Source of the DNA: Sanderia malayensis
Lineage: Eukaryota; Cnidaria; Scyphozoa; Semaeostomeae; Pelagiidae
Assembly: GCA_013076295.1 (NCBI GenBank)
Contig: RQOL01000828.1
Span: forward strand, 248,001-312,000
Reading direction: 5' to 3'
DNA length: 64,000 nt
In this document: positions 21,690-64,000 of the stretch, piece by piece
How positions within the stretch are numbered: position 1 is the first letter of the stretch
Layout of the letters: each line of letters opens with the position of its first letter
Made by a program: the position numbers and the translations under genes
Notes under the pieces: generated by a model
Seen by the model: the letters and a program-made list of their open reading frames with translations, nothing else
Told to the model about the DNA's origin: nothing
Database searches by the model: none

Positions 21690-22864
21690 ACCCTCTGTCT
21701 CTCGCATGCTAAACAAGCAATATCCCACTGAGCTACACCCCAGATGAGATAGCGAACAATAGTATTCAAAGCTTATGTAAAATAAGGCGTTTTTTGTATC
21801 CATAATTGCAACTAAAAAATAAGACTCACCTTAAAATAGATGGAGAAACAGAGTTTCGACCCCAGGGAATCTCGCATGCAAAGCGTGACCTCTACCACTG
21901 AGTTACACTCCCAAAGAGATAGCAAAGTCTACCAGTCAAAGCGTATATAAGTTAACGCCGTTTCTTGTATGCATAATTGCAAGTAAACAATCAAAAACAT
22001 TTCAACATAGATGGAGGAGCAAGGTATCAAACCCTTGGCTTCTCGAATGCAAAGCGAGCGCTCTACCACTGTGCTACACGCCGGATGAGATAGCAAACTA
22101 TAGCAATCAACGTTTATGTAATTTAACTGCATTTTTTGTATGCATAGTTGCAATTAAACAATCAAAATAAGCTCCCAATGGATAAAAGAGCAGGGTTTCG
22201 AACCCTGGGCTACTCGTATGCTAAGCGAGCACTCTACCACTGAGCTACACCCCAAAAGGTAGTAAACTCTAGCAGTGAAGCTTTTGTAAGTTAACGCTAA
22301 TTCTTTTATGCATAATTAGAAATAAACAATCAAAATAATCTCAAAATAGATACAGGAGCAGGGTTTCGAACCCTGGGCTTCTGGCATGGTAAGAGAACAC
22401 TTTACCACTGAGCTGCACCCCGGACGAGCTATGAAACTCAAGCAGTCAAAGTCTCTGTAACTTAACGCCATTTGTTGTATGCATAGTTGCAAATAAACAA
22501 TGAAAATAATCTCAAAATTGATGGACGATTAGGTTTCGAACCCTGGGCTTCTCGCATGCTAAGCGAGCACGCTACAACTGAGCTACACCGCCGATGAGAT
22601 AGTAAACTCCAGAAGTCAATGCTTTTGTAAGTTAACGCCTTTTCGTATATGCATAAGTTCAAATAAGTTATGAAACTAATCTCAAAAACAGATTCACGAG
22701 CAGCGTTTCCAACCCTGGGCTTCTGGCATGGTAAAAGGAACACTCTACCACTGAGCTGCACCCCGGTCGAGCTATCAAACTCAAGCAGTCAAAATTTCTG
22801 TAACTTAACGCCATTTCTTATATGCACAATTGCAAATAAACAATCAAAATAATCTCAAAATAGA

Positions 22865-22936
22865 TGGAGGAGCAGGGTTTCGAACCCTGGTCCTCTCGCG
22901 TGCAAAGCGAGCGTTCTACAACTGAGCTAGACCCCC
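22865..22936 (-). tRNA. tRNA-Ala(UGC)-like copy
   Basis: 72 nt; anticodon stem CTCGC/GCGAG with loop TTTGCAC (anticodon UGC), B box GGTTCGAAACC, acceptor GGGGGTC/CTCCTCC with G3:U70. The D stem has TAGC/GCTC with a TTGT loop change. May be expressed; more likely one of many satellite copies. Confidence 0.45.
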
Positions 22937-24401
22937 AACAAGCTACGAAGCTCTAGATGTGAACGCTTTTGTAATTTAATGCCTTTTTTGTATGCATAAA
23001 TGCAAATGAACAATCAAAATATTCTCAAAATAGATGGAGGAGCAGGGTTTCGAACCCTGGGCTTCTGGCATGGTAAGAGAACACTCTACGACTGAGCTAC
23101 ACCCCCGATGAGATAGTAAACTCTAGCAGTGAAAGCTTTTGTAAGTTAACGCTTTTTCGTAGATGCATAAGTTCAAATAACTTATGAAACTAATATCAAA
23201 AACATATTCACGAGCAGGGTTTCCAACCCTGGGCTTCTAGCCTGCTAAGAGAACACTCTACCACTGAGCTGCACCCCCGATGAGATATCAAACTCAAGCA
23301 GTGAAAGTTTCTGTAACTTAACGAGATTTCTTGTATGCATAATTGCAAATAAAGAATCAAAATAATCTCAAAATAGATGGAGGAGCAGGGTTTCAAACCC
23401 TGGGTCTCTCGCATGCTAAGCGAGCACTCTACGACTGAGCTACACCCCCGATGAGATAGTAAACTCTAGCAGTGAAAGCTTTTTTAAGTTAACGCCTTTT
23501 CGTAGATGCATAAGTTCAAATAACTTTTGAAACTAATCTCAAAAACATATTGACGAGCAGGGTTTCCAACCCTGGGCTTCTGGCATGGAAAGAGAACACT
23601 CTACTACCGAGCTGCACCCCGGATGAGCTTTGAAATTGAAACAGTCAAAATTTCGTAACTTAACACCATTTCTTGTATGCATAATTGCAAATAAACAATC
23701 AAAACATTCTCAACATTGATGGAAGAGCAGGGTTTCAAACCCGGTGCCTCTCGCATCCTACGCGAGCACTCTACAACTGATCTACACCCCCAACTAGCTA
23801 TGAAGCTCTAGAAGTGAACGCTTTTGTAATTTAATGACTTTTTTGTTTGCATAAATGCAAATGAACAATCAATAAAATCTCAAAATAGATGGAAGAGCAG
23901 GGATTCAAACCCTGGGCTTCTAGCATGTTAGAAGAACACTCTACCACTGAAATGCACCCCCGATGAGCTATCAAACTCAAGCAGTCAAGGTTTTTGTAAA
24001 TTAACGCCATTTCTTGTATGCATAATTGCAAATAAAAAATCAAAATAATCTCAAAATAGATGGAGGAGTAGGTTTCGAACCTTGCGCCTCTTGCATGCTA
24101 AGCGAGCACTCTATTACTGAGCTACACCCCCGATGAGATAGTAAAGTTTGGCAGTGAAAGCTTTTGGAAGTTAACGCCGTTTCGTATATGCATAAGTTTA
24201 AAAAACTTATAAAACTAATCTCAAAATTTGTGCAGTGGCAGGGTTTCAAACCCTGGGCTTCTAGCACGCTAGAAGAACACTCTACCACTGAGCTACACCC
24301 CCTATGAGCTCTCAAACTCAAGCAGTCAAAGTTTCTGTAACTTAACGCCATTTCTTATATGCACAATTGGAAATAAACAATCAAAATAATCTCAAAATAG
24401 A

Positions 24402-24473
24402 TGGAGGAGCAGGGTTTCGAACCCTGGGCCTCTCGCATGCAAAGCGAGCGTTCTACAACTGAGCTACACCCCG
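24402..24473 (-). tRNA. tRNA-Ala(UGC)-like copy
   Basis: Anticodon loop TTTGCAT in a perfect CTCGC/GCGAG stem, intact T arm CAGGG-TTCGAAA-CCCTG. The first base is C instead of G, so the end pair 1-72 is lost. Confidence 0.4.
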
Positions 24474-25425
24474 AACGAGCTATGAAGCTCTAAAAGTAAA
24501 CTCTTTTGTAATTTAATGCCTTTTTTGTATGCAGAAATGCAAATGAACAACAATATAAACACAAAATATATTCACAACCAGGGTTTCCAACCCTGGGTTT
24601 CTAGCATGCTAGGAGAGCACTCTACCATTGAGCTGCACCCCGGAAGAGGTATCAAACTCAAGCAGTCAAAGTTTCTGTAACTTAACACACTTTCTTGTAT
24701 GCATAATTGCAAATAAACAATCAATATAATCTCAAAATAGATGGAGCAGTAGGGTCGCGAAACCTAGGCCTCTCGCATGCTAAGCGAGCACTCTACCACT
24801 GAGCTACACCCCCAACGAGATAGTAAACTCTAGCAGTGAAGGCCTTTGTAAGTTAACGTTTTTTCGTATATGCATAAGTTCAGATAACTTATGAAACTAA
24901 TCTCAAAACATATTCAGCAGCAGGGTTTCCAACCCTGGGCCTCTAGCATGCTAGGAGAGCACTCTGCCATTGAGCTGCATCCCGGATGAGCTATCAAACT
25001 CAAGCAGTCAAAGTTTCTGTAACATAACACCCTTTCCTGTATGCATAATTGCAAATATACAATCAAAATAATCTCAAAATAGATGGAGGAGCAGGGTTTC
25101 GAACGCTGGGCCTCTCGCATGCAATGCAAGCGCTCTACCACTGAGCTACACCCCGGATGAGATAGTAAAGTTTGGCCGTGAAAGCTTTTGGAAGTTAACG
25201 CTGTTTCGTATATGCATAAGTTCAAAAAACTTATGAAACTAATCTCAAACTTTGTGCAGTGGCAGGGTTTCCAACCCTAGGCTTCTAGCATGCTAGAAGA
25301 ACACTCTACCACTGAGCTACACCCCCGATGAGAGATCAAACTCAAGCAGTCAAAGGTTTCGTAACTTAACGCCATTTCTTGTATGTATAATTGCAAATAA
25401 ACAATCAAAATAATCTCAACATTGA

Positions 25426-25497
25426 TGGAAGAGCAGGGTTTCAAACCCGGTGCCTCTCGCATCCTACGCGAGCACTCTACAACTGAGCTACACCCCC
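25426..25497 (-). tRNA. tRNA-Ala backbone with AGG (Pro) anticodon, probable pseudogene
   Basis: Anticodon stem CTCGC/GCGAG is perfect with loop GTAGGAT (AGG). Acceptor GGGGGTG/CTCTTCC keeps G3:U70. The T-loop reads TTTGAAA, losing the invariant C56, and the T stem has a mismatch, so function is doubtful. Several close copies exist (for example 23720-23791). Confidence 0.35.
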
Positions 25498-27778
25498 AAC
25501 GAGCTATGAAGCTCTAGAAGTGAACGCTTTTGTAATTTAATGACTTTTTTGTATGCATAAATGCAAATGAACAATCAATATAATCTCAAAATAGATGGAA
25601 GAGCAGGGATTCAAACCCTGGGCTTCTGGCATGCAATGCCAGCGCCCTACCACTGAGCTACACCCCCAACGAGCTATGAAGCTCTAGAAGTGTACCCTTT
25701 TGTAATATAATGCCTTTTTTGTATGCATAAATGCAAATGAACAACAATATAATCTCAAAATAGATGGAGGAGCAGGGTTTCGAAGCCTGGGCCCCTCGCA
25801 TGCTAACCGAGAACTCTACCACTGAGCTACACCCCCGATGAGATAGTAAACTCTAGCAGTGAAAACTTTTGTAAGTTAACGCCTTTTCGTAGATGCATAA
25901 GTTCAAATAACTTATGAAACTATTATCAAAAACATATTCACGAGCAGGGTTTCCAACCCTGGGATTCTAGCCTGCTAAGAGAACACTCTACCACTGAGCT
26001 GCACCCCCGATGAGATATCAAACTCAAGCAGTGAAAGTTTCTGTAACTTAACGAGATTTCTTGTATGCATAATTGCAAATAAACAATCAAAATAACCTCA
26101 AAATCGATGGAGGAGCAGGTTTTCAAACCCTGGGCATCTCTCATGCTAAGCGAGCACTCTCCCACTGAGCAACACCCCCAAAGAGCTATGAAGCTCTAGA
26201 AGTGAACACTTTTGTAATTTAAAGACCTTTTTCTATGCATCAATGCAAATCAACAATCAATATAATCTCAAAATAGATGGAAAAGCAGGGATTCAAACCC
26301 TGGGCCTTTCCCATACTAAGCGAGCACTCTACCACTAGCTAAACGCCCAACGAGCTATGAAGCTCTAGAAGTAAACCCCTTTGTAATTTAATGCCTTTGT
26401 GGTATGCATAAATGCAAATGAACAATCAAAATAATTTCAAATTAGACGGAGGAGCAGGGTTTCGATCCCTGGGCCTCTTGCATGCTGAGCGATCACACTA
26501 TTACTGAGCTACACCCCCGATGAGATAATAAACTTTAGCAGTGAAAGCTTTTGGAAGTTAGCGCCTTTTCGTATATGCATAAGTTCAAAAAACTTATGAA
26601 ACTAATCTCAAAACATATGCAGTGGCAGGGTTTCCAACCCTGGGCTTCTAGCATACTAGAAGAACACTCTACCACTGAGCTGCACCCCCGATGAGCTATC
26701 AAACTCAAGCAGTCAAAGGTTTCGTAACTTAACGCCATTTCTTGTATGTATAATTGCAAATAAAGAATCAAAATAATCTCAAAATAGATGGAGGAGCAGG
26801 GTTTCAAACCCTGGGTCTCTCGCATGCTAAGCGAGCACTCTATTACTGAGCTACACCCCCGATGAGATAATAAACTTTAGCAGTGAAAGCTTCTGGAAGT
26901 TAGCGCCTTTTCGTAAATGCATAAGTTCAAAAAACTTATGAAACTAATCTCAAAACATATGCAGTGGCAGGGTTTCCAACCCTGGGCTTCTAGCATACTA
27001 GAAGAACATTCTACCACTGAGCTGCACCCCCGATGAGCTATCAAACTCAAGCAGTCAAAGGTTTCGTAACTTAACGCCATTTCTTGTATGTATAATTGCA
27101 AATAAAGAATCAAAATAATCTCAAAATAGATGGAGGAGCAGGGTTTCAAACCCTGAGTCTCTCGCATGCTAAGCGAGCACTCTACGACTGAGCTACACCC
27201 CCGATTAGATAGTAAACTCCAGCATTGAAAGCTTTTTTAAGTTAACGCCTTTTCGTAGATGCATAGGTTCAAATAACTTATGAAACAAATCTCAAAAACA
27301 TATTGACGAGCAGGGATTCCATCCCTGGGCTTCTGGCATGGAAAGAGAACACTCTACCACCGAGCTGCACCCCGGATGAGCTATGAAACTGAAGCAGTCA
27401 AAGTTTTTGTAACTTAACGCCAGTTCTTGTATGCAAAAATTGCAAATAAACAATCAAAATATTCTCAAAATTGATGGAGGAGCAGGGTTTCAAACCCGGT
27501 GCCTTTCGCATCCTACGCGAGCACTCTACAACTGCGCTACACCCCCAACGAGCTACGAAGCTCTAGATGTGAACGCTTTTGTAATTTAATGCCTTTTTTG
27601 TATGCATAAATGCAAATGAACAATCAAAATAATCTCAAAATAGATGGAGGAGCAGGGTTTTAAACCCTGGGCTTCTCGCATGCTAAGCGAGCCCTCTACC
27701 ACTGAGCTACACCCTCAACGAGTTCTGAAGCTCTAGAAGTCAACGCTTTTGTAATTTAATGCTTTTTTTTGTATGCAT

Positions 27779-28140
27779 GACCGTTCGTTCCAAACCTTGG
27801 ATATTTATAATCCTAAAATTTTTAACATTACTATCATTTTACATTATAAAATCTTTTATTGTAAAATACACTACTCTTTTTATATGATTTATTATTAGCT
27901 TGTTTTAATCATTTATTTTATAACTTATAAGGACTATTTTAAATAGATTTTAATTAAACATTTTAGATTTATTTAAAAAAATATAGGGACTATTTTAAGT
28001 AGAATCTTAATGCACATTATAGATTTTATTCAGTATTTTAAAAAGTTGGTTTTAATTAGCAAAATTAACTTGTTAATCACGCTATATATTTACCAGCCAA
28101 CTTTAAATAAATTAATGATTATTCTTATTATTATTATTAT
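27779..28140 (+). mobile_element. A+T-rich insert in the array, copy 1 (362 bp)
   Basis: Interrupts a spacer and is flanked by TATGCAT on both sides (27772-27778 and 28141-28147), consistent with a 7-bp target duplication, although TATGCAT also occurs naturally in spacers. It starts gaccgttcgttccaaacc and ends in a TTA-repeat tail. Inside is a partial duplication (ggactattttaaatagattt and ggactattttaagtagaatc). No coding. A short non-LTR or SINE-like insertion is possible. Confidence 0.6.
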
Positions 28141-28183
28141 TATGCATAAATGCAAACGAACAACAACATAATCTCAAAATAGA

Positions 28184-28255
28184 TGGAGGAGCAGGGTTTC
28201 GAACCCTGGGCCTCTCGCATGCTAAGCGAGCACTCTACCACTGAGCTACACCCCC
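28184..28255 (-). tRNA. tRNA-Ala(AGC), best-preserved copy
   Basis: Full cloverleaf, 72 nt: acceptor GGGGGTG/CTCCTCC (six of seven pairs, with the G3:U70 alanine identity wobble), D arm GCTC-AGTGGTA-GAGT, anticodon arm CTCGC-TTAGCAT-GCGAG (AGC), five-base variable loop AGGCC, T arm CAGGG-TTCGAAA-CCCTG, discriminator A. A box (TAGCTCAGTGG) and B box (GGTTCGAAACC) fit RNA polymerase III promoters, and TTTT follows five bases after the end. No intron, no encoded CCA. Confidence 0.6.
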
Positions 28256-28694
28256 GATGAGATAGTAAACTCTAGCAGTGAAAGCTTTTGTAAGTTAACG
28301 CCTTTTCGTAAATGCATAAGTTCAAAAAACTTATGAAACTATTCTCAAAACATATGCAGGAGCAGGGTTTCGAACCCTGGGTCTCTCGCATGCTAAGCGA
28401 GCACTCTACGAGTGAGCTACACCCCCGATGAGATAATAAACTCTAGCAGTGAAAGCTTTTTTAAGTTAACGCCTTTTCGTATATGCATAAGTTCAAATAA
28501 CTTATGAAACTAATCTCTAAACATATTCAGGAGCAGGGTTTCCAACCCTGGGCATCTAGCATGCGAAGAGAACACTACCACTGAGCTGCACCCCAGATGA
28601 GCTATCAAACTCAACCAGTCAACGTTTCTGTAACTTAACACCCTTTCTTGTATGCATAATTGCAAATAAACAACCAAAATAATCTCAAAATTGA

Positions 28695-28766
28695 TGGAGG
28701 GACAGGGTTTCGAAACCTGGGCTTCTGGCATGCAATGCCAGCGCCCTACCACTGAGCTATACCCCC
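28695..28766 (-). tRNA. tRNA-Ala(UGC)-like copy, alternative anticodon arm
   Basis: Anticodon arm CTGGC-ATTGCAT-GCCAG is perfectly paired but differs from the class A arm, showing compensatory change. Acceptor GGGGGTA/TCCCTCC keeps G3:U70; T stem has one mismatch. Close copies recur through the array (for example 61910-61981). Confidence 0.4.
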
Positions 28767-30530
28767 AACGAGCAATGAAGCTCTAGAAGTGTACTCTTTT
28801 GTAATATAATGCCTTTTTTGTATGCATAAATGCAAATGAACAATCAAAATATTCTCAAAATAGATGGAGGAGCAGGGTTTCGAACCCTGGGTTTCTGGCA
28901 TGGTAAGAGAACACTCTACGACTGAGCTACACCCCCGATGAGATAGTAAACTCTAGCAGTGAAAGCTTTTAAAAGTTAACGCCTTTTCGTATATGCATAA
29001 GTTCAAAGAACTTATGAAACTAATCTCAAAACTTTTGCAGGGGCAGGGTTTCCAACCCTGCGCTTCTAGCATGCTAGAGGAACACTCTACCACTGAGCTC
29101 AGCCGCGATGAGCTATGAAACTGAAGCAGTCAAAATTTCTGTAACTTAACGCCATATGTTGTATGCATAATTGCAAATAAAAAATCAAAATAATCTCAAA
29201 ATAGATGGAGGAGCAAGGTTTCGAACCCTGCGCCTCTCGCATGCTAAGCGAGCACTCTACCACTGAGCTACACCCCCAACGAGATAGTAAACTCTAGCAG
29301 TGAAGGCCTTTGTAAGTTAACGTTTTTTCGTATATGCATAAGTTCAAATAACTTATGAAACTAATCTCAAAACATATTCAGCAGCAGGGTTTCCAACCTT
29401 GGGCCTCTAGCATGCTAGGAGAGCACTCTGCCATTGAGCTGCATCCCGGATGAGCTATCAAACTCAAGCAGTCAAAGTTTCTGTAACGTAACACCCTTTC
29501 CTGTATGCATAATTGCAAATAAACAATCAAAATAATCTCAAAATAGATGGAGGAACAAGGCTTCAAACCCTGGGTCTTTCGCATGCTAAGCGAGCACTCT
29601 ACGACTGAGCTACACCCCCGATGAGATAATAAACTCTAGCAGTGAAAGCTTTTTTAGTTAACGCGTTTTCGTAGATGCATAAGTTCAAATAACTTATGAA
29701 ACTAATCTCAAAAACATATTGACGAGCAGGGATTCCATCCCTGGGCTTCTGGCATGGACAGAGAACACTCTACCACCGAGCTGCACCCCGGATGAGCTTT
29801 GAAACTGAAACAGTCAAAAATTTCGTAACTTAACGCCATTTCTTGTATGCAAAAAATGCAAATAAACAATCAAAATATTCTCAACATTGATGGAAGAGCA
29901 GGGTTTCAAACCCGTTGCCTCTCGCATCCTACGCGAGCACTCTACAACTGAGCTACACCCCCAACGAGCTACCGAAGCTCTAGATGTGAACGCTTTTGTA
30001 ATTTAATGCCTTTTTTGTATGCATAAATGCAAATGAACAATCAAAATATTCTCAAAATAGATGGAGGAGCAGGGTTTCGAACCCTGGGCTTCTGGCATGG
30101 TAAGAGAACACTCTACGACTGAGCTACACCCCCGATGAGAGAGTAAACTCTAGCAGTGAAAGCTTTTAAAAGTTAACGCCTTTTCGTATATGCATAAGTT
30201 CAAAGAACTTATGAACTAATCTCAAAACTTTGCAGGGGCAGGTTTCCAACCCTGCGCTTCTAGCATGCTAGAGGAACACTCTACCACTGAGCTCAGCCGC
30301 GATGAGCTAATGAAACTGAAGCAGTCAAAATTTCTGTAACTTAACGCCATATGTTGTATGCATAATTGCAAATAAACAATCAAATAATCTCAAATAGATG
30401 GAGGAGCAGGGTTTTAAACCCTGGGCTTCTCGCATGCTAAGCGAGCCTCTACACTGAGCTACACCCTCAACGAGTTCTGAAGCTCTAGAAGTCAACGCTT
30501 TTGTAATTTAATGCTTTTTTTTGTATGCAT

Positions 30531-30882
30531 GACGTTGTTCCAAACCTTGGATATTTATAATCCTAAAATTTTTAACATTACTATCATTTTACATTTTAAA
30601 ATCTTTTATTGTAATACCTACTCTTTTATATATTATTATTAGCTTGTTTTAATCATTTATTTTATAACTTATAAGGACTATTTTAAATAGATTTTAATGA
30701 AACATTTTAGATTTATTTAAAAAATATAGGGACTATTTTAAGTAGAATTTTAATGCACATTATGGATTTTATTCAGTATTTTAAAAAGTTGGTTTTAATT
30801 AGCAAAATTAACTTGTTAATCACGCTATATATTTACCAGCCAACTTTAAATAAATTAATGATTATTCTTATTATTTTATTAT
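30531..30882 (+). mobile_element. A+T-rich insert, copy 2
   Basis: Same element as 27779-28140 with about ten fewer bases, mostly single-base losses; flanked by TATGCAT (30524-30530, 30883-30889). Confidence 0.6.
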
Positions 30883-33800
30883 TATGCATAAATGCAAACG
30901 AACAACAACATAATCTCAAAATAGATGGAGGAGCAGGGTTTCGAACCCTGGGCCTCTCGCATGCTAAGCGAGCACTCTACCACTGAGCTACACCCCCGAT
31001 GAGGTAGTAAACTCTAGCAGTGAAAGCTTTTGTAAGTTAACGCCTTTTCGTAAATGCATAACTTCAAAAAACTTATGAAACTAATCTCAAAAACATAATG
31101 ACGAGAAGGGTTTCCATCCCTGGGCTTCTGGCATGGAAAGAGAACACTCTACCACCGAGCTGCACCCCGGATGAGCTTTGAAACTTAAACAGTCAAAATT
31201 TCGTAACTTAACGCCATTTCTTGTATGCAAAAAATGCAAATAAACAATCAAAATATTCTCAACATTGATGGAAGAGCAGGGTTTTAAACCCGGTGCCTCT
31301 CGCATCCTACGCGAGCACTCTACAACTGAGCTACACCCCCAACGAGCTATGAAGCTCTAGAAGTGAACGCTTTTGTAATTTAATGACTTTTTTGTATGCA
31401 TAAATGCAAATGAACAATCAATATAATCTCAAAATAGATGGATGAGCCGGGTTTCGAAGCCTGGGCCTCTCGCATGCTAACCGAGAACTCTACCACTTAG
31501 CTACACCCCCGATGAGATAGTAAACTCTAGCAGTGAAGGCTTTTGTAAGTTAACGCCTTTTCGTATATGCATAAGTTCAACTAACTTATGAAACTAATCT
31601 CTAAACATATGCAGTGGCAGGGTTTCCAATCCTGGGCTTCTAGCATACTAGAAGAACACTCTACCACTGAGCTGCACCCCCGATGAGCTATCAAACTCAA
31701 GCAGTCAAAGGCTTCGTAACTTAACGCCATTTTTTGTATGTATAATTGCAAATAAAGAATCAAAATAATCTCAAAATAGATGGAGGAGCAGGGTTTCAAA
31801 CCCTGGTCTCTCGCATGCTAAGCGAGCACTCTACCACTGAGCTACACCCCGATTAGATAGTAAACTCCAGCAGTGAAAGCTTTTGTAAGTTAACGCCTTT
31901 TCGTACATGCAAAAGTTCAAATAACTTATGAAACTAATCTCAAAAACATATTGACGAGCAGGGTTTCCAACCCTGGGCTTCTGGTATGGTAAAAGAACAC
32001 TCTACCACCGAGCTACACACCGGATGAGCTATGAAACTGAAGCAGTCAAAGTTTTTGTAACTTAACGCCAGTTCTTGTATGCAAAAATTGCAAATAAACA
32101 ATCAAAATATTCTCAAAATTGATGGAGGAGCAGGGTTTCAAACCCGGTGCCTTTCGCATCCTACGCGAGCACTCTACAACTGCGCTACACCCCCAACGAG
32201 CTATGAACCTCTACAAGTGAACGCTTTTGTAATCTAATGACTTTTTTCTATGCATAAATGCAAAATGAACAATCAATATATTCTCAAAATAGATGGAAAA
32301 GCAGGGATTCAAACCCTGGGCTTCTAGCATGTTAGAAGAACATTCTAACCACTGAAATGCACCCCCGATGAGCTATCAAACTCAAGCAGTCAAGGTTTTT
32401 TGTAAATTAACGCCATTTCTTGTATGCATAATTGCAAATAAAAATCAAAATAATCTCAAAATAGATGGAGGAGCAAGGTTTCGAACCCTGCGCCTCTCGC
32501 ATGCTAAGCGAGCACTCTACCACTGAGCTACACCCCCAACGAGATAGTAAACTCTAGCAGTGAAGGCCTTGTAAGTTAACGTTTTTTCGTATATGCATAA
32601 GTTCAAATAACTTATGAAACTAATCTCAAAACAAATTCAGCAGCAGGGTTTCCAACCCTGGGCCTCTAGCATGCTAGGAGAGCACTCTGCCATTGAGCTG
32701 CATCCCGGATGAGCTATCAAACTCAAGCAGTCAAAGTTTCTGTAACGTAACACCCTTTCTGTATGCATAATTGCAAATAAACAATCAAAATAATCTCAAA
32801 ATAGATGGAGGAACAGGGCTTCAAACCCTGGGTCTCTCGCATGCTAAGCGAGCACTCTACGACTGAGCTACACCCCCGATGAGATAATAAACTCTAGCAG
32901 TGAAAGCTTTTTTAAGTTAACGCCTTTTCGTAGATGCATAAGTTCAAATAACTTATGAAACTAATCTCAAAAACATATGACGAGCAGGGTTTCCATCCCT
33001 GGGCTTCTGGCATGGACAGAGAACACTCTACCACCGAGCTGCACCCAGATGAGCTTTGAAACTGAAACAGTCAAAATTTCGTAACTTAACGCATTTCTTG
33101 TATGCAAAAAATGCAAATAAACAATCAAAATATTCTCAACATTGATGGAAGAGCAGGGTTTCAAACCCGTTGCCTCTCGCATCCTACGCGAGCACTCTAC
33201 AACTGAGCTACACCCCAACGAGCTATGAAGCTCTAGAAGTGAACGCTTTTGTTACTTAATGATTTTTTGTATGCATAAATGCAAATGAACAATCAATATA
33301 ATCTCAAAAGAGATGGAAGAGCCGGGATTCGAAGCCTGGGCCTCTCGCATGCTAACCGAGAACTCTACCACTTAACTACACCCCGATGAGATAGTAAACT
33401 CTAGCAGTGAAAGCTTTTGTAAGTTAACGCCTTTTCGTACATGCAAAGTTCAAATAACTTATGAGACTAATCTCAAAAACATATTGACGAGCAGGGTTTC
33501 CAACCCTGGGCTTCTGGCATGGAAAGAGAACACTCTACTACCGAGCTGCACCCCGGATGAGCTTTGAAATTGAAACAGTCAAAATTTCGTAACTTAACGC
33601 CATTTCTTGTATGCATAATTGCAAATATACAATCAAAATATTCTCACATTGATGGAAGAGCAGGGTTTCAAACCCGGTGCCTCTCGCATCCTACGCGAGC
33701 ACTCTACAACTGATCTACACCCCAACTAGCTATGAAGCTCTAGAAGTGAACGCTTTTGTAATTTAATGACTTTTTTGTTTGCATAATGCAAATGAACATC

Positions 33801-36800: not shown

Positions 36801-37102
36801 ATGGAGGAGCAGGGTTTCAAACCCGGTGCCTTTCGCATCCTACGCGAGCACTCTACAACTGCGCTACCCCCAACGAGCTACGAAGCTCTAGATGTGAACG
36901 CTTTTGTAATTTAATGCCTTTTTGTATGCATAAATGCAAATGAACAATCAAAATAATCTCAAAATAGATGGAGGAGCAGGGTTTTAAACCCTGGGCTTCT
37001 CGCATGCTAAGCGAGCCCTCTACCACTGAGCTACACCCTCAACGAGTTCTGAAGCTCTAGAAGTCAACGCTTTTGTAATTTAATGCTTTTTTTTGTATGC
37101 AT
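30883..37102 (-). repeat. tRNA-Ala-derived satellite array, segment 3 (indel-rich)
   Basis: Some 36 units. Duplicates of the same units exist at 40.2-44 kb without the many one-base deletions seen here. Between about 34.9 and 36.1 kb units shrink to near 150 bp, with losses inside stems, so individual tRNA calls in this stretch should not be trusted. Confidence 0.85.
30926..30997 (-). tRNA. tRNA-Ala(AGC)
   Basis: Identical over its 72 nt to the copy at 28184-28255, directly after insert copy 2. All stems, both internal promoter boxes, G3:U70 and the TTTT downstream are present. Confidence 0.55.
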
Positions 37103-37462
37103 GACCGTTCGTTCCAAACCTTGGATATTTATAATCCTAAAATTTTTAACATTACTATCATTTTACATTATAAAATCTTTTATTGTAAAATACACTACTC
37201 TTTTATATGATTATTATTAGCTTGTTTTAATCATTTATTTTATAACTTATAAGGACTATTTTAAATAGATTTTAATTAAACATTTTAGATTTATTTAAAA
37301 AAATATAGGGACTATTTTAAGTAGAATCTTAATGCACATTATAGATTTTATTCAGTATTTTAAAAAGTTGGTTTTAATTAGCAAAATTAACTTGTTAATC
37401 ACGCTATATATTTACCAGCCAACTTTAAATAAATTAATGATTATTCTTATTATTATTATTAT
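37103..37462 (+). mobile_element. A+T-rich insert, copy 3
   Basis: Near-identical to copy 1 (9.32 kb upstream), same TATGCAT flanks (37096-37102, 37463-37469). Confidence 0.6.
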
Positions 37463-46300: not shown

Positions 46301-46742
46301 CAACGAGCTATGAAGCTCTAGAAGTGTACTCTTTTGTAATATAATGCCTTTTTTGTATGCATAAATGCAAATGAAGAACAATATAATCTCAAAATAGATG
46401 GAGGAGCAGGGTTTAGAAGCCTGGGCCTCTCGCATGCTAACCGAGAACTCTACCACTGAGCTACACCCCCGATGAGATAGTAAACTCTAGCAGTGAAAAC
46501 TTTTGTAAGTTAACGCCTTTTCGTACATGCAAAAGTTCAAATAAGTTATGAAACTAATCTCAAAAACAGATTCACGAGCAGGGTTTCCAACCCTGGGCTT
46601 CTGGCATGGTAAAAGGAACACTCTACCACTGAGCTGCACCCCGGTCGAGCTATCAAACTCAAGCAGTCAAAGTTTCTGTAACTTAACGCCATTTCTTATA
46701 TGCACAATTGCAAATAAACAATCAAAATAATCTCAAAATAGA

Positions 46743-46814
46743 TGGAGGAGCAGGGTTTCGAACCCTGGTCCTCTCGCGTGCAAAGCGAGCGTTCTACAAC
46801 TGAGCTAGACCCCC
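46743..46814 (-). tRNA. tRNA-Ala(UGC)-like copy
   Basis: Near-identical to 22865-22936, with another copy at 47937-48008; anticodon loop TTTGCAC, B box intact. The 24-kb separation from the first copy shows long-range copying within the array. Confidence 0.4.
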
Positions 46815-52800: not shown

Positions 52801-53223
52801 GCAGTCAAGGTTTTTTGTAAATTAACGCCATTTCTTGTATGCATAATTGCAAATAAAAAATCAAAATAATCTCAAAATAGATGGAGGAGCAAGGTTTCGA
52901 ACCTTGCGCCCCCCGCATGCTAAGCGAGCACTCTATTACTGAGCTACACCCCCGATGAGATAGTAAAGTTTGGCAGTGAAAGCTTTTGGAAGTTAACGCC
53001 GTTTCGTATATGCATAAGTTTAAAAAACTTATGAAACTAATCTCAAAATTTGTGCAGTGGCAGGGTTTCCAACCCTGGGCTTCTAGCACGCTAGAAGAAC
53101 TTTCTACCACTGAGCTACACCCCCGATGAGCTCTCAAACTCAAGCAGTCAAAGTTTCTGTAACTTAACGCCATTTCTTATATGCACAATTGCAAATAAAC
53201 AATCAAAATAATCTCAAAATAGA

Positions 53224-53295
53224 TGGAAGAGCAGGGTTTCGAACCCTGGGCCTCTCGCATGCAAAGCGAGCGTTCTACAACTGAGCTACACCCCG
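53224..53295 (-). tRNA. tRNA-Ala(UGC)-like copy
   Basis: Perfect anticodon and T arms, anticodon UGC; first base C breaks pair 1-72, as in the 24402 and 58502 copies, so these three form a subfamily. Confidence 0.4.
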
Positions 53296-56200
53296 AACGA
53301 GCTATGAAGCTCTAAAAGTAAACTCTTTTGTAATTTAATGCCTTTTTTTGTATGCATAAGAGCAAAAGAACAACAATATAATATCAAAATAGATGGAGGA
53401 GCAGGGTTTCGAACCCTGGGCCTCTCGCATGCTGAGCGAGCACTCTACCACTGAGCTATATGCCCAAGGGGCTATGAAGCTCTAGAAGTGAACGCTTTTG
53501 TAATTTAATGCTTTTTTTGTATGCATAAATGCAAATGAACAACAATATAAACTCAAAATATATTCACAACCAGGCTTTCCAACCCTGGGTTTCTAGCATG
53601 CTAGGAGAGCACTCTACCATTGAGCTGCACCCCGGAAGAGGTATCAAACTCAAGCAGTCAAAGTTTCTGTAACTTAACACACTTTCTTGTATGCATAATT
53701 GCAAATAAACAATCAATATAATCTCAAAATAGATGGAGCAGTAGGGTCGCGAAACCTAGGCCTCTCACATGCTAAGCGAGCACTCTACCACTGAGCTACA
53801 CCCCCAACGAGATAGTAAACTCTAGCAGTGAAGGCCTTTGTAAGTTAACGTTTTTTCGTATATGCATAAGTTCAAATAACTTATGAAACTAATCTCAAAA
53901 CATATTCAGCAGCAGGGTTTCCAACCCTGGGCCTCTAGCATGCTAGGAGAGCACTCTGCCATTGAGCTGCATCCCGGATGAGCTATCAAACTCAAGCAGT
54001 CAAAGTTTCTGTAACATAACACCCTTTCCTGTATGCATAATTGCAAATATACAATCAAAATAATCTCAAAATAGATGGAGGAGCAGGGTTTCGAACGCTG
54101 GGCCTCTCGCATGCAATGCAAGCGCTCTACCACTGAGCTACACCCCGGATGAGATAGTAAAGTTTGGCAGTGAAAGCTTTTGGAAGTTAACGCCGTTTCG
54201 TATATGCATAAATTCAAAGAACTTATGAAACTAATCTCAAAATTTGTGCAGTGGCAAGGTTTCCAACCCTAGGCTTCTAGCATGCTAGAAGAACACTCTA
54301 CCACTGAGCTACACCCCCGATGAGAGATCAAACTCAAACAGTCAAAGGTTTCGTAACTTAACGCCATTTCTTGTATGTATAATTGCAAATAAACTATCAA
54401 AATAATCTCAAAATAGATGGAGGAACAGGGTTTCAAACCCTGGGTCTCTCGCCTGCTAAGCGAGCACTCTACGACTGAGCTACACCCCCGATGAGATAGT
54501 AAACTCTAGCAGTGAAAGCTTTTTTAAGTTAACGCCTTTTCGTAGATGCATAAGTTCAAATAACTTATGAAACTAATCTCAAAAACATATTGACGAGCAG
54601 GGTTTCCATCCCTGGGCTTCTGGCATGGAAAGAGAACACTCTACCACCGAGCTGCACCCCGGATGAGCTTTGAAACTGAAACAGTCAAAATTTCGTAACT
54701 TAACGGCATTTCTTGTATGCAAAAAATGCAAATAAACAATCAAAATATTCTCAACATTGATGGAAGAGCAGGGTTTCAAACCCGGTGCCTCTCGCATCCT
54801 ATGCGAGCACTCTACAACTGAGCTACAACCCCCAACGAGCTATGAAGCTCTAGAAGTGAACGCTTTTGTAATTTAATGACTTTTTTGTATGCATAAATGC
54901 AAATGAACAATCAATATAATCTCAAAATAGATGGAAGAGCAGGGATTCAAACCCTGGGCTTCTAGCATGTTAGAAGAACACTCTACCACTGAAATGCACC
55001 CCCGATGAGCTATCAAACTCAAGCAGTCAAGGTTTTTGTAAATTAACGCCATTTCTTGTATGCATAATTGCAAATAAAAGATCAAAATAATCTCAAAATA
55101 GATGGAGGAGCAAGGTTTTGAACCCTGCGCCTCTCGCATGCTAAGCGAGCACTCTATTACTGAGCTACGCCCCCTTTGAGATAATAAACTCTAGCAGTGA
55201 AAGCTTTTTTAAGTTAACGCCTTTTCGTAGATGCATAAGCTCAAATAACTTATGAAACTAATCTCAAAAACATATTGACGAGCAGGGTTTCCATCCCTAG
55301 GCTTCTGGCATGGAAAGAGAACACTCTACCACCGAGCTGCACCCCGGATGAGCTTTGAAACTGAAACAGTCATAGCTTAACGCCATTTCTTGTATGCAAA
55401 AAATGCAAGTAAACAATCAAAATATTCTCAACATTGATGGAAGAGCAGGGTTTCAAACCCGGTGCCTCTCGCATCCTACGCGAGCGCTCTACAACTGAGC
55501 TACACCCCCAACGAGCTATGAAGCTCTAGAAGTGAACGCTTTTGTATTTTAATGACTTTTTTGTATGCATAAATGCAAATGAACAATCAATATAATCTCA
55601 AAATAGATGGAAGAGCCGGGTTTCGAAGCCTGGGCCTCTCGCATGCTAACCGAGAACTCTACCACTTAGCTACACCCCCGATGAGATAGTAAACTCTAGC
55701 AGTGAAGGCTTTTGTAAGTTAACGCCTTTTCGTATATGCATAAGTTCAAATAACTTATGAAACTAATCTCTAAACATATTCAGGAGCAGGGTTTCCAACC
55801 CTGGGCATCTAGCATGCGAAGAGAACACTACCACTGAGCTGCACCCCAGATGAGCTATCAAACTCAACCAGTCAAAGTTTCTGTAACTTAACACCCTTTC
55901 TTCTTTGCATAATTGCAAATAAACAAAAAAAATAATCTCAAAATTGATGGAGGGACAGGGTTTCGAAACCTGGGCATCTGGCATGCAATGCCAGCGCCCT
56001 ACCACTGAGCTATACCCCCAACGAGCTATGCTCTAGAAGTGTACTCTTTTGTAATTCAATGCCTTTTTTGTATGCATAAATGCAAATGAAGAACAATATA
56101 ATCTCAAAATAGATGGAGGAGCAGGGTTTAGAAGCCTGGGCCTCTCGCATGCTAACCCAGAACTCTACCACTGAGCTACACCCCCGATGAGATAGTAAAC

Positions 56201-58501
56201 TCTAGCAGTGAAAGCTTTTGTAAGTTAACGCCTTTTCGTAAATGCATAAGTTTAAAAAACTTATGAAACTAATATCAAAAACATATTCACGAGCAGGGTT
56301 TCCAACCCTGGGCTTCTAGCCTGCTAAGAGAACACTCTACCACTGAGCTGCACCCCCGATGAGATATCAAACTCAAGCAGTGAAAGTTTCTGTAACTTAA
56401 CGAGATTTCTTGTATGCATAATTGCAAATAAACAATCAAAATAATCTCAAAATCGATGGAGGAGCAGGGTTTCAAACCCTGGGCATCTCTCATGCTAAGC
56501 GAGCACTCTCCCACTGAGCAACACCCCCAAAGAGCTATGAAGCTCTAGAAGTGAACGCTTTTGTAATTTAATGACTTTTTTGTATGCATAAATGCAAATG
56601 AACAATCAATATAATCTCAAAATAGATGGAAGAGCAGGGATTCAAACCCTGGGCTTCTAGCATGTTAGAAGAACACTCTACCACTGAAATGCACCCCCGA
56701 TGAGCTATCAAACTCAAGCAGTCAAGGTTTTTGTAAATTAACGCCATTTCTTGTATGCATAATTGCAAGTAAAAAATCAAAATAATCTCAAAATAGATGG
56801 AGGAGCAAGGTTTTGAACCCTGCGCCTCTCGCATGCTAAGCGAGCACTCTCTTACTGAGCTACACCCCCGATGAGATAATAAACTTTAGCAGTGAAAGCT
56901 TTTGGAAGTTAGCGCCTTTTCGTAAATGCATAAGTTCAAAGAACTTAAGAAACTAATCTCAAAACATATGCAGGAGCAGGGTTTCCAACCCTGGGCTTCT
57001 AGCATGCGAAGACAACACTCTACCACTGAGCTGCACCCCGGATGAGCTATCAAACTCAACCAGTCAAAGTTTCTGTAACTTAACACCCTTTCTTGTATGC
57101 ATAATTGCAAATAAACAATCAAAATAATCTCAAAATTGATGGAGGGACAGGGTTTCGAAAACTGGGCTTCTGGCATGCAATGCCAGCGCCCTACCACTGA
57201 GCTACACCCCCAACGAGCTATGAAGCTCTAGAAGTGTACTCTTTTGTAATATAATGCCTTTTTTGTATGCATAAATGCAAATGAACAATAATATAATCTC
57301 AAAATAGATGGAGGAGCAGGGTTTCGAAGCCTGGGCCCTTCGCATGCTAACCCAGAACTCTACCACTGAGCTACACCCCCGATGAGATAGTAAACTCTAG
57401 CAGTGAAAACTTTTGTAAGTTAACGCCTTTTCGTAGATGCATAAGTTCAAATAACTTATGAAACTAATATCAAAAACATATTCACGAGCAGGGTTTCCAA
57501 CCCTGGGCTTCTAGCCTGCTAAGAGAACACTCTACCACTGAGCTGCACCCCCGATGAGATATCAAACTCAAGCAGTGAAAGTTTCTGTAACTTAACGAGA
57601 TTTCTTGTATGCATAATTGCAAATAAACAATCAAAATAATCTCAAAATCGATGGAGGAGCAGGGTTTCAAACCCTGGGCATCTCTCATGCTAAGCGAGCA
57701 CTCTCCCACTGAGCAACACCCCCAAAGAGCTATGAAGCTCCAGAAGTGAACACTTTTGTAATTTAAAGAACTTTTTCTATGCATCAATGCAAATGAACAA
57801 TCAATATAATCTCAAAATAGATGGAAAAGCAGGGATTCAAACCCTGGGCCTTTCGCATACTAAGCGAGCACTCTACAACTAGCTAAACGCCCAACGAGCT
57901 ATGAAGCTCTAGAAGTAAACGCCTTTGTAATTTAATGCCTTTGTGGTATGCATAAATGCAAATGAACAATCAAAATAATTTCAAATTAGACGGAGGAGCA
58001 GGGTTTCGATCCTTGGGCCTCTTGCATGCTGAGCGATCACCCTATTACTGAGCTACACCCCCGATGAGATAATAAACTTTAGCAGTGAAAGCTTTTGGAA
58101 GTTAGCGCCTTTTCGTATATGCATAAGTTCAAAAAACTTATGAAACTAATCTCAAAACATATGCAGTGGCAGGGTTTCCAACCCTGGGCTTCTAGAATAC
58201 TAGAAGAACACTCTACCACTGAGCTGCACCCCCGATGAGCTATCAAACTCAAGCAGTCAAAGGTTTCGTAACTTAACGCCATTTCTTGTATGTATAATTG
58301 CAAATAAAGAATCAAAATAATCTCAAAATAGATGGAGGAGCAGGGTTTCAAACCCTGGGTCTCTCGCATGCTAAGCGAGCACTCTACCACTGAGCTACAC
58401 CCCCGATGAGAGATCAAACTCAATCAGAAAGGATTCGTAACTTAACGCCATTTCTTATATGCACAATTGCAAATAAACAATCAAAATAATCTCAAAATAG
58501 A

Positions 58502-58573
58502 TGGAGGAGCAGGGTTTCGAACCCTGGGCCTCTCGCATGCAAAGCGAGCGTTCTACGACTGAGCTACACCCCG
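58502..58573 (-). tRNA. tRNA-Ala(UGC)-like copy
   Basis: As 24402-24473: UGC anticodon in a perfect stem, intact B box, lost 1-72 pair; D loop has TCGT instead of TTGT. Confidence 0.4.
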
Positions 58574-60034
58574 AACGAGCTATGAAGCTCTAAAAGTAAA
58601 CTCTTTTGTAATTTAATGCCTTTTTTGTATGCATAAGAGCAAAGGAACAACAATATAAACTCAAAATATATTCACAACCAGGGTTTCCAACCCTGGGTTT
58701 CTAGCATGCTAGGAGAGCACTCTACCATTGAGCTGCACCCCGAAAGAGGTATCAAACTCAAGCAGTCAAAGTTTCTGTAACTTAACAGACTTTCTTGTAT
58801 GCATAATTGCAAATAAACAATCAATATAATCTCAAATAGATGGAGCAGTAGGGTCGCGAAACATAGGCCTCTCGCATGCTAAGCGAGCACTCTACCACTG
58901 AGCTACACCCCCAACGAGATAGTAAACTCTAGCAGTGAAGGCCTTTGTAAGTTAACGTTTTTTCGTATATGCATAAGTTCAAATAACTTATGAAACTAAT
59001 CTCAAAACATATTCAGCAGCAGGGTTTCCAACCCTGGGCCTCTAGCATGCTAGGAGAGCACTCTGCCATTGAGCTGCATCCCGGATGAGCTATCAAACTC
59101 AAGCAGTCGAAGTTTCTGTAACGTAACACCCTTTCCTGTATGCATAATTGCAAATATACAATCAAAATAATCTCAAAATAGATGGAGGAGCAGGGTTTCG
59201 AACGCTGGGCCTCTCGCATGCAATGCAAGCGCTCTACCACTGAGCTACACCCCGGATGAGATAGTAAAGTTTGGCAGTGAAAGCTTTTGGAAGTTAACGC
59301 CGTTTCGTATATGCATAAGTTCAAAAAACTCATGAAACTAATCTCAAAATTTGTGCAGTGGCAGGGTTTCCAACCCTAGGCTTCTAGCATGCTAGAAGAA
59401 CACTCTACCACTGAGCTACACCCCCGATGAGAGATCAAACTCAAGCAGTCAAAGGTTTCGTTACTTAACGCCATTTCTTGTATGTATAATTGCAAATAAA
59501 CAATCAAAATAATCTCAAAATAGATGGAGGAACAGGGTTTCAAACCCTGGGTCTCTCGCATGCTAAGCGAGCACTCTACGACTGAGCTACACCCCCGATG
59601 AGATAGTAAACTCTAGCAGTGAAAGCATTTTTAAGTTAACGCCTTTTCGTAGATGCATAAGTTCAAATAACTTATGAAACTAATCTCAAAAACATATTGA
59701 CGAGCAGGGTTTCCATCCCTGGGCTTCTGGCATGCGAAGAGAACACTACCACTGAGCTGCACCCCAGATGAGCTATCAAACTCAACCAGTCAAAGTTTCT
59801 GTAACTTAACACCCTTTCTTGTATGCATAAATGCAAATAAACAACCAAAATAATCTCAAAATTGATGGAGGGACAGGGTTTCGAAACCTGGGCTTCTGGC
59901 ATGCAATGCCAGCGCCATACCACTGAGCTATACCCCCAACGAGCTATGAAGCTCTAGAAGTGTACTCTTTTGTAATATAATGCCTTTTTTGTATGCATAA
60001 ATGCAAATGAAGAACAATATAATCTCAAAATAGA

Positions 60035-60106
60035 TTGAAGAGCAGGGTTTCGAACCCTGGGCCTCTCGCATGCTAAGCGAGCACTCTACCACTGAGCTAC
60101 ACCCCC
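60035..60106 (-). tRNA. tRNA-Ala(AGC)
   Basis: All arms as in the best copy, but acceptor 3' strand CTCTTCA loses the end pair 1-72. G3:U70, A and B boxes present. Confidence 0.45.
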
Positions 60107-60376
60107 AACGAGCTATGAAGCTCTAGAAGTGAACGCTTTTGTAAGTTAACGCCTTCTCATTTATGCATAAGTTCAAATAACTTTTGAAACTAATCTTAAA
60201 ACATATTCACGAACAGAGTTTCCAACCCTGGGCTTCTAGCATGCTAGGAGAGCTCTCTACTATTGAGCTGCACCCCGGAAGAGCTATCAAACTCAAGCAG
60301 TCAAAGTTTCTGTAACTTAACGCACTTTCTTGTATGCATAATTTCAAATAAACAATCAATATAATCTCAAAATAGA

Positions 60377-60448
60377 TGGAGGAGTAGGGTTTCGAACCCT
60401 AGGCTTTTCGCATGCTAAGCGAGCCCTCTGCCACTGAGCTACATCCCC
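60377..60448 (-). tRNA. tRNA-Ala(AGC)-like copy
   Basis: Anticodon arm perfect (AGC); T stem compensated to TAGGG/CCCTA, a paired change that keeps base-pairing. Acceptor GGGGATG has two mismatches. Confidence 0.4.
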
Positions 60449-62760
60449 GATGAGATAGTAAACTCTAGCAGTGAAGGCTTTTGCAAGTTAACGCCTTTTC
60501 CTGTATGCATAAGTTCAAATAACTTATGAAACTAATCTCTAAACATATTCAGGAGCAGGGTTTCCAACCCTGGGCTTCTAGCATGCTAGGAAAGCACTCT
60601 AAAATTGAGCTGCACCCCGGATGAGCTATCAAACTCAACCAGTCAAAGTTTCTGTAACTTAACACCCTTTCTTGTATGCATAATTGCAAATAAACAATCA
60701 AAATAATCTCAAAATTGATGGAGGGACAGGGTTTCGAAAACTGGGCTTCTGGCATGCAATGCCAGGGCCCTACCACTGAGCTACACCCCCAACGAGCTAT
60801 GAAGCTCTAGAAGTGTACTCTTTTGTAATATAATGCCTTCTTTGTATGCATAAATGCAAATGAACAACAATATAATCTCAAAATAAATGGAGGAGCAGGG
60901 TTTCGAAGCCTGGGCCTCTCGCATGCTAACCGAGAACTCTACCACTTAGCTACACCCCCGATGAGATAGTACACTCTAGCAGTGAAAGCTTTTGTAAGTT
61001 AACGCCTTTTCGTAAATGCATAAGTTCAAATAACTTAGGAAACTAAACTCAAAACATATGCAGGAGCAGGGTTACCAACCCTGGGCTTCTAGCGTGCGAA
61101 GAGAACACTCTACCACTGAGCTGCACCCCCGATGAGCTGTTAGTCTCAAGCAGTCAAGGTTTCTGTAACTTAACGCCATTTCTTGTATGCATAATTGCTA
61201 ATAAACAATCAAAATAATCACAAAATAGATGGAAGAGCAGGGTTTCCAACCCTGGGCTTCTAGCATGCTAGGAGAGCACTCTAAAATTGAGCTGCACCCC
61301 GGATGAGCTATCAAACTCAACCAGTCAAAGTTTCTGTAACTTAACACCCTTTCTTGTATGCATAATTGCAAATAAACAATCAAAATAATCTCAAAATTGA
61401 TGGAGGGACAGGGTTTCGAAAACTGGGCTTCTGGCATGCAATGCCAGCGCCCTACCACTGAGCTACACCCCCAACGAGCTATGAAGCTCTAGAAGTGTAC
61501 TATTTTGTAATTTAATGCCTTTTTTGTATGCATAAATACAAATGAACAACAATATAATCTCAAAATAGATGGAGGAGCCGGGTTTCGAAGCCTGGGCCTC
61601 TCGCATGCTAACCGAGAACTCTACCACTTAGCTACACCCCCGATGAGATAGTAAACTCTAGCAGTGAAGGCTTTTGTAAGTTAACGCCTTTTCGTATATG
61701 CATAAGTTCAAATAACTTATGAAACTAATCTCTAAACATATTCAGGAGCAGGGTTTCCAACCCTGGGCATCTAGCATGCGAAGAGAACACTACCACTGAG
61801 CTGCACCCCAGATGAGCTATCAAACTCAACCAGTCAAAGTTTCTGTAACTTAACACCCTTTCTTGTATGCATAATTGCAAATAAACAATCAAAATAATCT
61901 CAAAATTGATGGAGGGACAGGTTTTCGAAACCTGGGCTTCTGGCATGCAATGCCAGGGCCCTACCACTGAGCTACACCCCCAACGAGCTATGAAGCTCTA
62001 GAAGTGTACTCTTTTGTAATATAATGCCTTTTTTGTATGCATAAATGCAAATGAACAACAATATAATCTCAAAATAGATGGAGGAGCAGGGTTTAGAAGC
62101 CTGGGCCTCTCGCATGCTAACCGAGAACTCTACCACTGAGCTACACCCCCGATGAGATAGTAAACTCTAGAAGTGAAAGCTTTTGTAAGTTAACGCCTTT
62201 TCGTAAATGCATAAGTTCAAATAACTTAAGAAACTAATCTCAAAACATATGCAGGAGCAGGGTTTCCAACCCTGGGCTTCTAGCATGCGAAGAGAACACT
62301 CTACCACTGAGCTGCACCCCGGATGAGCTATCAAACTCAACCAGTCAAAGTTTCTGTAACTTAACACCCTTTCTTGTATGCATAATTGCAAATAAACAAT
62401 CAAAAAAATCTCAAAATTGATGGAGGGACAGGGTTTCGAGAACTGGGCTTCTGGCATGCAATGCCAGCGCCCTACCACTGAGCTACACCCCCAACGAGCT
62501 ATGAAGCTCTAGAAGTGTACTCTTTTGTAATATAATGCCTTTTTTGTATGCATAAATGCAAATGAACAACAATATAATCTCAAAATAGATGGAGGAGCAG
62601 GGTTTCCAACCCTGGGCTTCTAGCATGCGAAGAGAACACGCTACCACTGAGCTGCACCTCCGATGAGCTGTTAATCTCAAGCAGTCAAAGTTTCTGTAAC
62701 TTGAAGCCATTTCTTGTATGCATAATTGCTAATAAACAATCAAAATAATCACAAAATAGA

Positions 62761-62832
62761 TGGAAGAGCAGGGTTTCGAACCCTGGGCCTCTCGCATGCT
62801 AAGCGAGCACTCTACCACTGAGCTACACCCCC
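62761..62832 (-). tRNA. tRNA-Ala(AGC)
   Basis: Complete cloverleaf; acceptor GGGGGTG/CTCTTCC keeps G3:U70 (and a second wobble at 4-69). A and B boxes intact, TTTT downstream. Confidence 0.5.
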
Positions 62833-64000
62833 AACGAGCTATGAAGCTCTAGAAGTGAACGCTTTTGCAAGTTAACGCCTTCTCATTTATGCATAAGTTC
62901 AAATAACTTTTGAAACTAATCTTAAAACATATTCACGAACAGAGTTTCCAACCCTGGGCTTCTAGCATGCTAGGAGAGCTCTCTAATATTGAGCTGCACC
63001 CCGGAAGAGCTATCAAACTCAAGCAGTCAAAGTTTCTGTAACTTAACGCACTTTCTTGTATGCATAATTTCAAATAAACAATCAATATAATCTCAAAATA
63101 AATGGAGGAGTAGGGTTTCCAACCCTGGGCTTCTAACATGCTAGGAGAGCACTCTACCACTGAGCTGCACCCCTGATGAGCTATTCAACTCAAGCAGTCA
63201 AAGTTTCTGTAACTTAACGCCATTTCGTGTATGCATAATTGCTAATAAACAATCAAAATAATCTCAAGATAGATGGCAGAGCAGGGTTTCAAACCCTGGG
63301 CTTCTAACATGCTAGGAGAGCACTCTACCACTGAGCTGCACCCCTGATGAGCTATTAAATCAAGGAGTCAACGTTTCTGTAACTTAACGCCATTTCGTGT
63401 ATGCATAATTGCTAATAAACAATCAAAATAATTTCAAAATAGATGGCAGAGCAGGGTTTCAAACCCTGGGGCTCTCGCATTCGAAGCCAGCGCTCTACCA
63501 CTGAGCTACACCCCCAATGAGCTATGAATCCTAGAAGTCAACGCTTTTGTAACTTAATGACTTTTTTGTATGCATAAATGCAAATGAACAATCAATATAG
63601 TCTCAAAATAAATTTAGGAGCAGGATATCGAACCCTGGGGCTCTCGCATGCGAAGCCATCGCTCTACCACTCAGGTACACCCGCAACGAAGTATGAAGCT
63701 CTAGAAGTGAACGCTTTTGTAATTTAATGCCTTTTTTTGTATGCATAAATGCGAATGAACAACAACATAATCTCAAAATAGATGGAGGAGCAGGGTTTCG
63801 AAGCCTGGGCCTCTCCCATGCTAACCGAGAACTCTACCACTTAGCTACACCCCCGATGAGATAGTAAACTCTAGCAGTGAAAGCTTTTGTAAGTTAACGC
63901 CTTTTCGTAAATGCATAAGTTCAAATAACTTAGGAAACTAATCTCAAAACATATGCAGGAGCAGGGTTTCCATCCCTGGGCTTCTGGCATGGAAAGAGAA

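Follow-up and report, generated by a model that had tools for sequence, protein, structure and literature searches.

The frog satellite PcP190 has a unit of ~190 bp, 120 bp of which resemble 5S rDNA, and in the available parts of its descriptions it resembles the Sanderia malayensis array analyzed here in that the satellite unit combines an RNA polymerase III (Pol III) gene body with a faster-changing spacer (PMC11675491, PMC4201667). The two differ in that PcP190 has 5S rRNA as its source and occurs across frog families, whereas the present array is built on tRNA-Ala and is known from two loci in one genome (PMC11675491, PMC4201667). Clustered, repeated tRNA genes are also found in Entamoeba, as tandem arrays, and in Nematostella and teleosts, as large tDNA clusters; Nematostella has more than 17,000 tDNAs, 89% of which are clustered (PMC2888827). 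As far as the available part of that report describes them, the Nematostella and zebrafish clusters are mostly heterogeneous pairs, whereas here one tRNA-Ala unit repeats and decays as a satellite (PMC2888827). The Arabidopsis SYY cluster (tRNA-Ser/Tyr/Tyr) likewise consists of tandemly repeated tDNAs and is partly heterochromatic, silent in most tissues, and expressed in the root cap. It comprises serine and tyrosine genes with no satellite decay described in the part of the report available, in contrast to the decaying tRNA-Ala units here (PMC12308677). At human 1q23.3, tRNA genes also lie inside a tandem repeat, but one with 7.3-kb units, 9-43 per allele, in which tRNA makes up <6% of the unit, compared to 171 bp and 42% tRNA here (PMC4041453). 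The SINE-derived satellites of squamates are again Pol III-type elements made tandem, although their source is a dispersed SINE rather than a tRNA gene locus (PMC10702118). Harttia catfish satellites, for which a tRNA origin is mentioned, contain tRNA-derived parts in units that mix SINE, LINE, and tRNA sequences, as opposed to one tRNA gene plus flank (PMC11955569). A tRNA origin was not found in the available part of PMC8210747, and literature searches, with most subscription papers outside their scope, returned no entry for “tRNA-derived satellite” and no description of the array. Compared to these systems, the unusual feature of the Sanderia locus seems to be a graded series from gene to satellite within one genome.

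The window is the whole 64,000-nucleotide stretch analyzed (C781:248001-312000, C781 being the contig that carries it) in a searched genome of 184 Mb and 918 contigs. Most of it is occupied by what TRF reports as a single array (21700-63991, period 171, 248.1 copies, 73% matches), in which an iterated profile HMM recognizes 240 units that end within the window, the first at 21687. The units are ~171 bp long, are arranged head-to-tail, and join a 72-bp tRNA body to ~100 bp of spacer (42% tRNA), with the tRNA-Ala body on the minus strand in all 240. Of the 87 tRNAs that ARAGORN detects in the window, most are tRNA-Ala, every one lies on the minus strand, and none precedes 22184; neither the left flank (1-21686) nor any of 20 shuffled versions of 21701-64000 with preserved dinucleotides yields a tRNA. 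Rfam gives 124 window matches at or above the gathering score, all to RF00005 and all on the minus strand, with a best score of 63.5 bits (E 1.9e-11) and eight matches of at least 60 bits. Two bodies (30926-30997 and 40254-40325) equal the third one listed in Table 1 at 63.2 bits. The preliminary description, which had reported about 240 same-strand tRNA-Ala units of ~170 bp over 42 kb, is thus confirmed. It had named scores at background for all units as a refuting outcome, and with 124 matches past the Rfam threshold this is not what is seen. Four small AT-rich inserts occur in the window array; their 56-bp repeats (at 30655-30769, 37233-37348, and 39985-40102 in addition to the one tabulated) are similar, and the inserts have been duplicated along with blocks of the array.

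Table 1. Coordinates of features in the window (positions within the 64,000-nucleotide stretch) and on contig C478
Feature	Position	Strand	Basis or remark
Window part of the tRNA-Ala-derived satellite, 240 units	21687..64000	-	TRF + profile HMM
tRNA-Ala body, AGC, 63.5 bits, joint best in window	48956..49027	-	ARAGORN + Rfam
tRNA-Ala body, AGC, 63.5 bits, joint best in window	37506..37576	-	ARAGORN + Rfam
tRNA-Ala body, AGC, 63.2 bits	28184..28255	-	ARAGORN + Rfam
Unique sequence abutting left boundary of array	21500..21686	.	profile HMM boundary
56-bp repeat within ~370-bp AT-rich insert breaking up array	27911..28026	.	
Block duplication, 26500-35800 vs 35800-45200	26500..45200	-	95.9% over 9,406 columns
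Higher-order repeat, 16 consecutive units recurring 12 units (2,048 bp) on	41234..45841 (first/last unit starts)	-	mean identity 99.5%
tRNA-Ala(CGC) triplet, 172-bp spacing	C478:2646569-2646984 (L025)	opposite to AGC/TGC array	

The array is larger than first noted. The range first given runs to the window edge (21690..64000), beyond which the array in fact continues to give 708 units on C781, all on the minus strand, over ~164 kb with a modal unit spacing of 170-171 bp. When the next 140 kb are added to the window, the main block reaches approximately window coordinate 108,800, and sub-arrays extend to 185,436 (C781:433436), with the distal array broken by spaces of ~3 to 13 kb. This 204-kb stretch contains no N. 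Over C781, Rfam gives 402 matches at or above threshold, 124 in the window and 278 further on (150 of the 278 listed).

Few of these units are intact by a strict test that demands (i) no gap relative to the profile, (ii) at least 20 of 21 stem pairs, (iii) an Ala anticodon, (iv) GTTCGA, and (v) G3:U70. The test counts units by their start (241 in the window, compared to 240 by end), and gapped units fail it by construction (48/241 in the window, 31/49 in the array on C478 described below). Strictly intact are 11/241 units in the window and 14/264 and 8/203 in the further C781 stretches, for a total of 33/708, as well as 18/49 units of the C478 array. Anticodons have drifted to AGG, ACC, TGT, AAT, and others beside AGC, TGC, and CGC, while the box B core GTTCGAA is found in 38%, 48%, 0%, 26%, and 0% of the gap-free units of five sequence clusters. 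A TTTT lies within 14 columns after the tRNA in 84% of the 708 units, so that any live promoter could yield a short transcript. The preliminary description of complete units with pol III boxes, G3:U70, and TTTT is borne out for G3:U70, box B, and a nearby TTTT, each present in many units, but few units combine all features. Because dispersed AGC genes elsewhere in the genome reach only ~55 bits, the Rfam score alone cannot separate live from dead units. Most C781 units appear to be out of use as genes; those with intact bodies, above all on C478, may still serve as Pol III templates. Arrays of this kind can inflate tRNA counts, with 302 tRNAs detected by ARAGORN in the 204-kb stretch compared to the 33 strictly intact units.

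A second locus with this unit lies on C478. Within 15 kb it combines a 48-copy AGC/TGC array (48.3 copies, 90% matches) with a CGC triplet, a further CGC gene, and two genes for tRNA-Ala(TGC); four units of the array score 72.1 bits compared to 71.7 for the canonical TGC gene. The triplet and the array have alignable spacers and differ at 6/72 tRNA and 28/91 spacer positions. Among the matches listed in the genome searches, those bearing the spacer lie on C781 and C478 only; as the searches scored the best candidates only, and one with the spacer alone listed 42 matches, every one of them on C781, and missed C478, copies elsewhere may have escaped. Identical TGC bodies occur on C907, C829, and C597 with flanks that differ from those of the array, the C907 and C597 flanks being mutually alike. 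In the T-stem, the array consensus reads CAGGG/CCCTG and the dispersed TGC genes CGGGG/CCCCG. One of the dispersed tRNA-Ala(TGC) genes is followed directly by a likely intron-bearing tRNA gene (L027 2724-2816).

Outside the arrays, five AGC genes dispersed over C569, C613, and C655, whose D-loop is of another kind, were recovered among 64 looser-pattern matches and are confirmed by ARAGORN and Rfam. They score 50.1-55.6 bits, and many of the C781 matches (with 150 of the 278 non-window ones listed) do equally well. The arrays are therefore not the sole source of tRNA-Ala(AGC), which overturns the idea, raised by a first set of 72/72 AGC-type matches in the two arrays, that they hold all AGC tRNA-Ala genes. 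The AGC bodies of the arrays carry a D-loop of the TGC/CGC type and so probably derive from that type by anticodon change. The C478 locus is the probable parent of the C781 array.

Class labels along the array run ABAABABACABA and similar. Comparison of units at set distances (lags of 8, 12, 22, 51, and 55 among them) yields 108 runs in which five or more successive units all reach at least 95% identity. The block duplication in Table 1 contains 42 consecutive units at lag 51 with at least 95% identity; further aligned blocks agree at 98.0% over 4,969 columns and 99.0% over 3,979, and a stretch of 1,340 bp recurs unchanged at a shift of 9,342. Neighboring units in the main block, on the other hand, have a mean identity of only 77.6%, and any two of 730 units differ by 20% on average. 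Near-identical distant blocks combined with diverged neighbors are what unequal exchange and the duplication of blocks would be expected to leave behind, and unequal exchange is indicated by the higher-order repeats and block duplications. A megablast self-comparison of the whole stretch reported no duplications >1.5 kb, whereas unit runs and alignments of chosen blocks did show them. Between 88000-98386 and 97300-108700, the three longest alignments are all out-of-register, yet 45 units match at lag 55 in profile columns. A tree of 112 units (20/46 C478 units, 2 triplet units, and five C781 clusters sampled at 18 units apiece) separates C478 and the triplet from C781 with support of 98/86, from a bootstrap that had not settled and with a midpoint root. 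The direction from C478 to C781, as well as the exchange mechanism, we infer.

Of 764 units, the 730 with <25 gaps were clustered, and the five clusters examined comprise 267, 210, 151, 58, and 18 units. Within these five, purifying selection on the tRNA body was not found, with rare-variant frequencies about equal in tRNA and spacer (0.044/0.038, 0.036/0.030, 0.030/0.034, 0.022/0.022, and 0.007/0.006). Total non-consensus frequency is higher in the tRNA than in the spacer in four clusters and reversed in the second (0.058 vs 0.081), to which 46 C478 units belong. When all classes are taken together, mean identity to the consensus is 0.887 for the tRNA compared to 0.852 for the spacer, and tRNA/spacer non-consensus frequencies in the three C781 stretches are 0.122/0.139, 0.113/0.150, and 0.105/0.130; this pooled uniformity and that of the second cluster leave room for some constraint on the tRNA part.

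Comparison with the C478 consensus is more telling about the founders. C781 classes of 267 and 164 units differ from it at 0/72 tRNA positions and at 17/94 and 13/94 spacer positions, while their rare alleles are distributed 165:191 and 124:156 between tRNA and spacer (Fisher p 5e-5 and 8e-4), and the next two classes differ at 8/72 and 5/72 tRNA and 15/94 and 16/94 spacer positions (p 0.66 and 0.23); all four p-values serve as a guide, since alleles in a copied array are non-independent. An unchanged consensus tRNA beside a diverged spacer and even rare variants argues that founders were kept as genes and that selection was then relaxed. We read the two main classes as having had founders maintained as genes and the other classes as having had founders that were already broken, with relaxed selection since. 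The preliminary hint of past selection is thereby upheld, with better evidence in the unchanged consensus tRNAs and diverged spacers of the two largest classes.

That hint had been drawn from class A copies keeping their stems by paired changes, for which support is weak. The observed fraction of paired positions, relative to the mean of 300 shuffles that leave relatedness in place, is 0.852/0.844 in the largest class (136 unique bodies) and 0.740/0.724 in a class with a broken consensus (61 unique bodies), both above all shuffles, and 0.861/0.862 in the second class (88 unique bodies), which is not. Double changes in the largest, second, and broken-consensus classes number 26/12.5, 5/3.7, and 8/3.4 (observed/shuffled), with 424, 257, and 333 broken cells. 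The largest class thus does beat its shuffles, but 16 of its 26 double changes fall at one pair, and the second class does not follow. Covariation was rejected as proof of selection because relatedness survives shuffling; a signal that appears even in the broken-consensus class cannot separate genes from inherited relatedness. CpG decay was considered as a possible trace of methylation but not adopted as one: at the few CpG positions of the spacer, transitions amount to 25-39%, compared to 11-12% at other C or G, and a clear CpG transition excess was not found at the few such positions of the tRNA part.

C781 starts in a 92-bp satellite (C781:1-2500, L029; 27.3 copies in 2,500 bases), which is suggestive, though no proof, of a heterochromatic neighborhood. 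This satellite is present on at least 19 other contigs, with some copies far from contig ends. TTAGGG runs are frequent in the genome (7,176 24-base matches), and no telomere is seen at either end of C781 (initial 900 bases, final 614). The left part of the window contains a Gypsy-type retroelement remnant (6324-9800) with reverse transcriptase (7105-7509) and integrase (8003-9229) domains, bounded by 143-bp direct repeats that are 97% alike (6324-6466, 9658-9800). On the minus strand (10648-12341), a chromodomain ORF (10648-11181) adjoins a second ORF (11280-12341) that matches nothing in Pfam. EukProt offers two relatives for this second ORF, both with uninformative names; they are 88% identical to it across 50% and 36% of the ORF. 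Both ORFs are probably parts of a mobile element. A luciferase query, prompted by a guessed sea pansy origin, gave no match. An 85-bp direct repeat (20041-20125/20563-20647, 93% alike) lies ~1.1 kb left of the array.

The array is very probably a satellite derived from a tRNA gene, in which a TGC/CGC-type tRNA-Ala locus on C478 gave rise by amplification on C781 to at least 708 units, most of them dead. Like other satellites, it forms long, one-strand, head-to-tail, non-coding arrays with concerted copying. The choice that the preliminary description had posed between a gene cluster and a copied satellite falls toward the latter on account of the classes, the higher-order repeats, and the small number of intact window units (11/241), with the gene cluster less supported. 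In the proposed course of events, a tRNA-Ala gene of the TGC/CGC type and ~100 bp of flank would have been duplicated in tandem at the locus now on C478, where tandem copies would have gained AGC versions. A founder unit or short run would have moved to C781 and been expanded there by unequal crossing-over and block duplication to at least 708 units and ~164 kb. There is a small chance that this is a tRNA gene locus caught becoming a satellite while still working as a block, in which either the retained intact units would furnish tRNA-Ala, or fragments of it, as a regulated pool, or hundreds of Pol III-factor sites at nucleosome-like spacing would organize chromatin.

A working battery of tRNA-Ala genes, furnishing bulk supply as 5S rDNA arrays do for 5S RNA and shedding dead copies as a by-product, would account for the eight window matches of at least 60 bits, the strictly intact units on both contigs, and the prevalence of a nearby TTTT. 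It is improbable as an account of the whole, given that rare variants within classes show much the same density in tRNA and spacer, that the anticodons of many units have drifted to other amino acids, and that dispersed AGC and TGC genes are present; for the C478 array alone it is quite possible. It is very unlikely that the array is a structural satellite whose Pol III-factor sites would be kept at nucleosome-like spacing as a boundary, pericentromere, or similar domain. The 171-bp unit, the higher-order repeats, and the 92-bp satellite at the contig start are consistent with such a role, but a conserved factor site is not evident when GTTCGAA occurs in 0-48% of the gap-free units per cluster, and the 92-bp satellite, which also lies inside contigs, is no mark of a chromosome end.

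SINE-derived satellites are known in reptiles, according to the part of the source available (PMC10702118), and would offer a precedent for a tandem array of a tRNA-derived SINE. The unit here holds a full-length tRNA, its presumed parents are complete tRNA-Ala genes, and the spacer-bearing matches listed (best candidates scored) lie on C781 or C478 only, all of which make a SINE source highly implausible. Least credible is the idea that faulty assembly turned a short tRNA cluster into many copies. The near-identical blocks, such as the 99.0% alignment and the exact run of 1,340 bp, might be so explained, but the divergence among units and between neighbors, the lack of N in 204 kb, and a second array on C478 speak against it, leaving at most the copy number doubtful.

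The parents of satellites are often unknown. With apparent parent genes, an intermediate array rich in intact units, and a large decayed array carrying higher-order repeats in one genome, both the passage from gene to satellite and the accompanying loss of selection become measurable.
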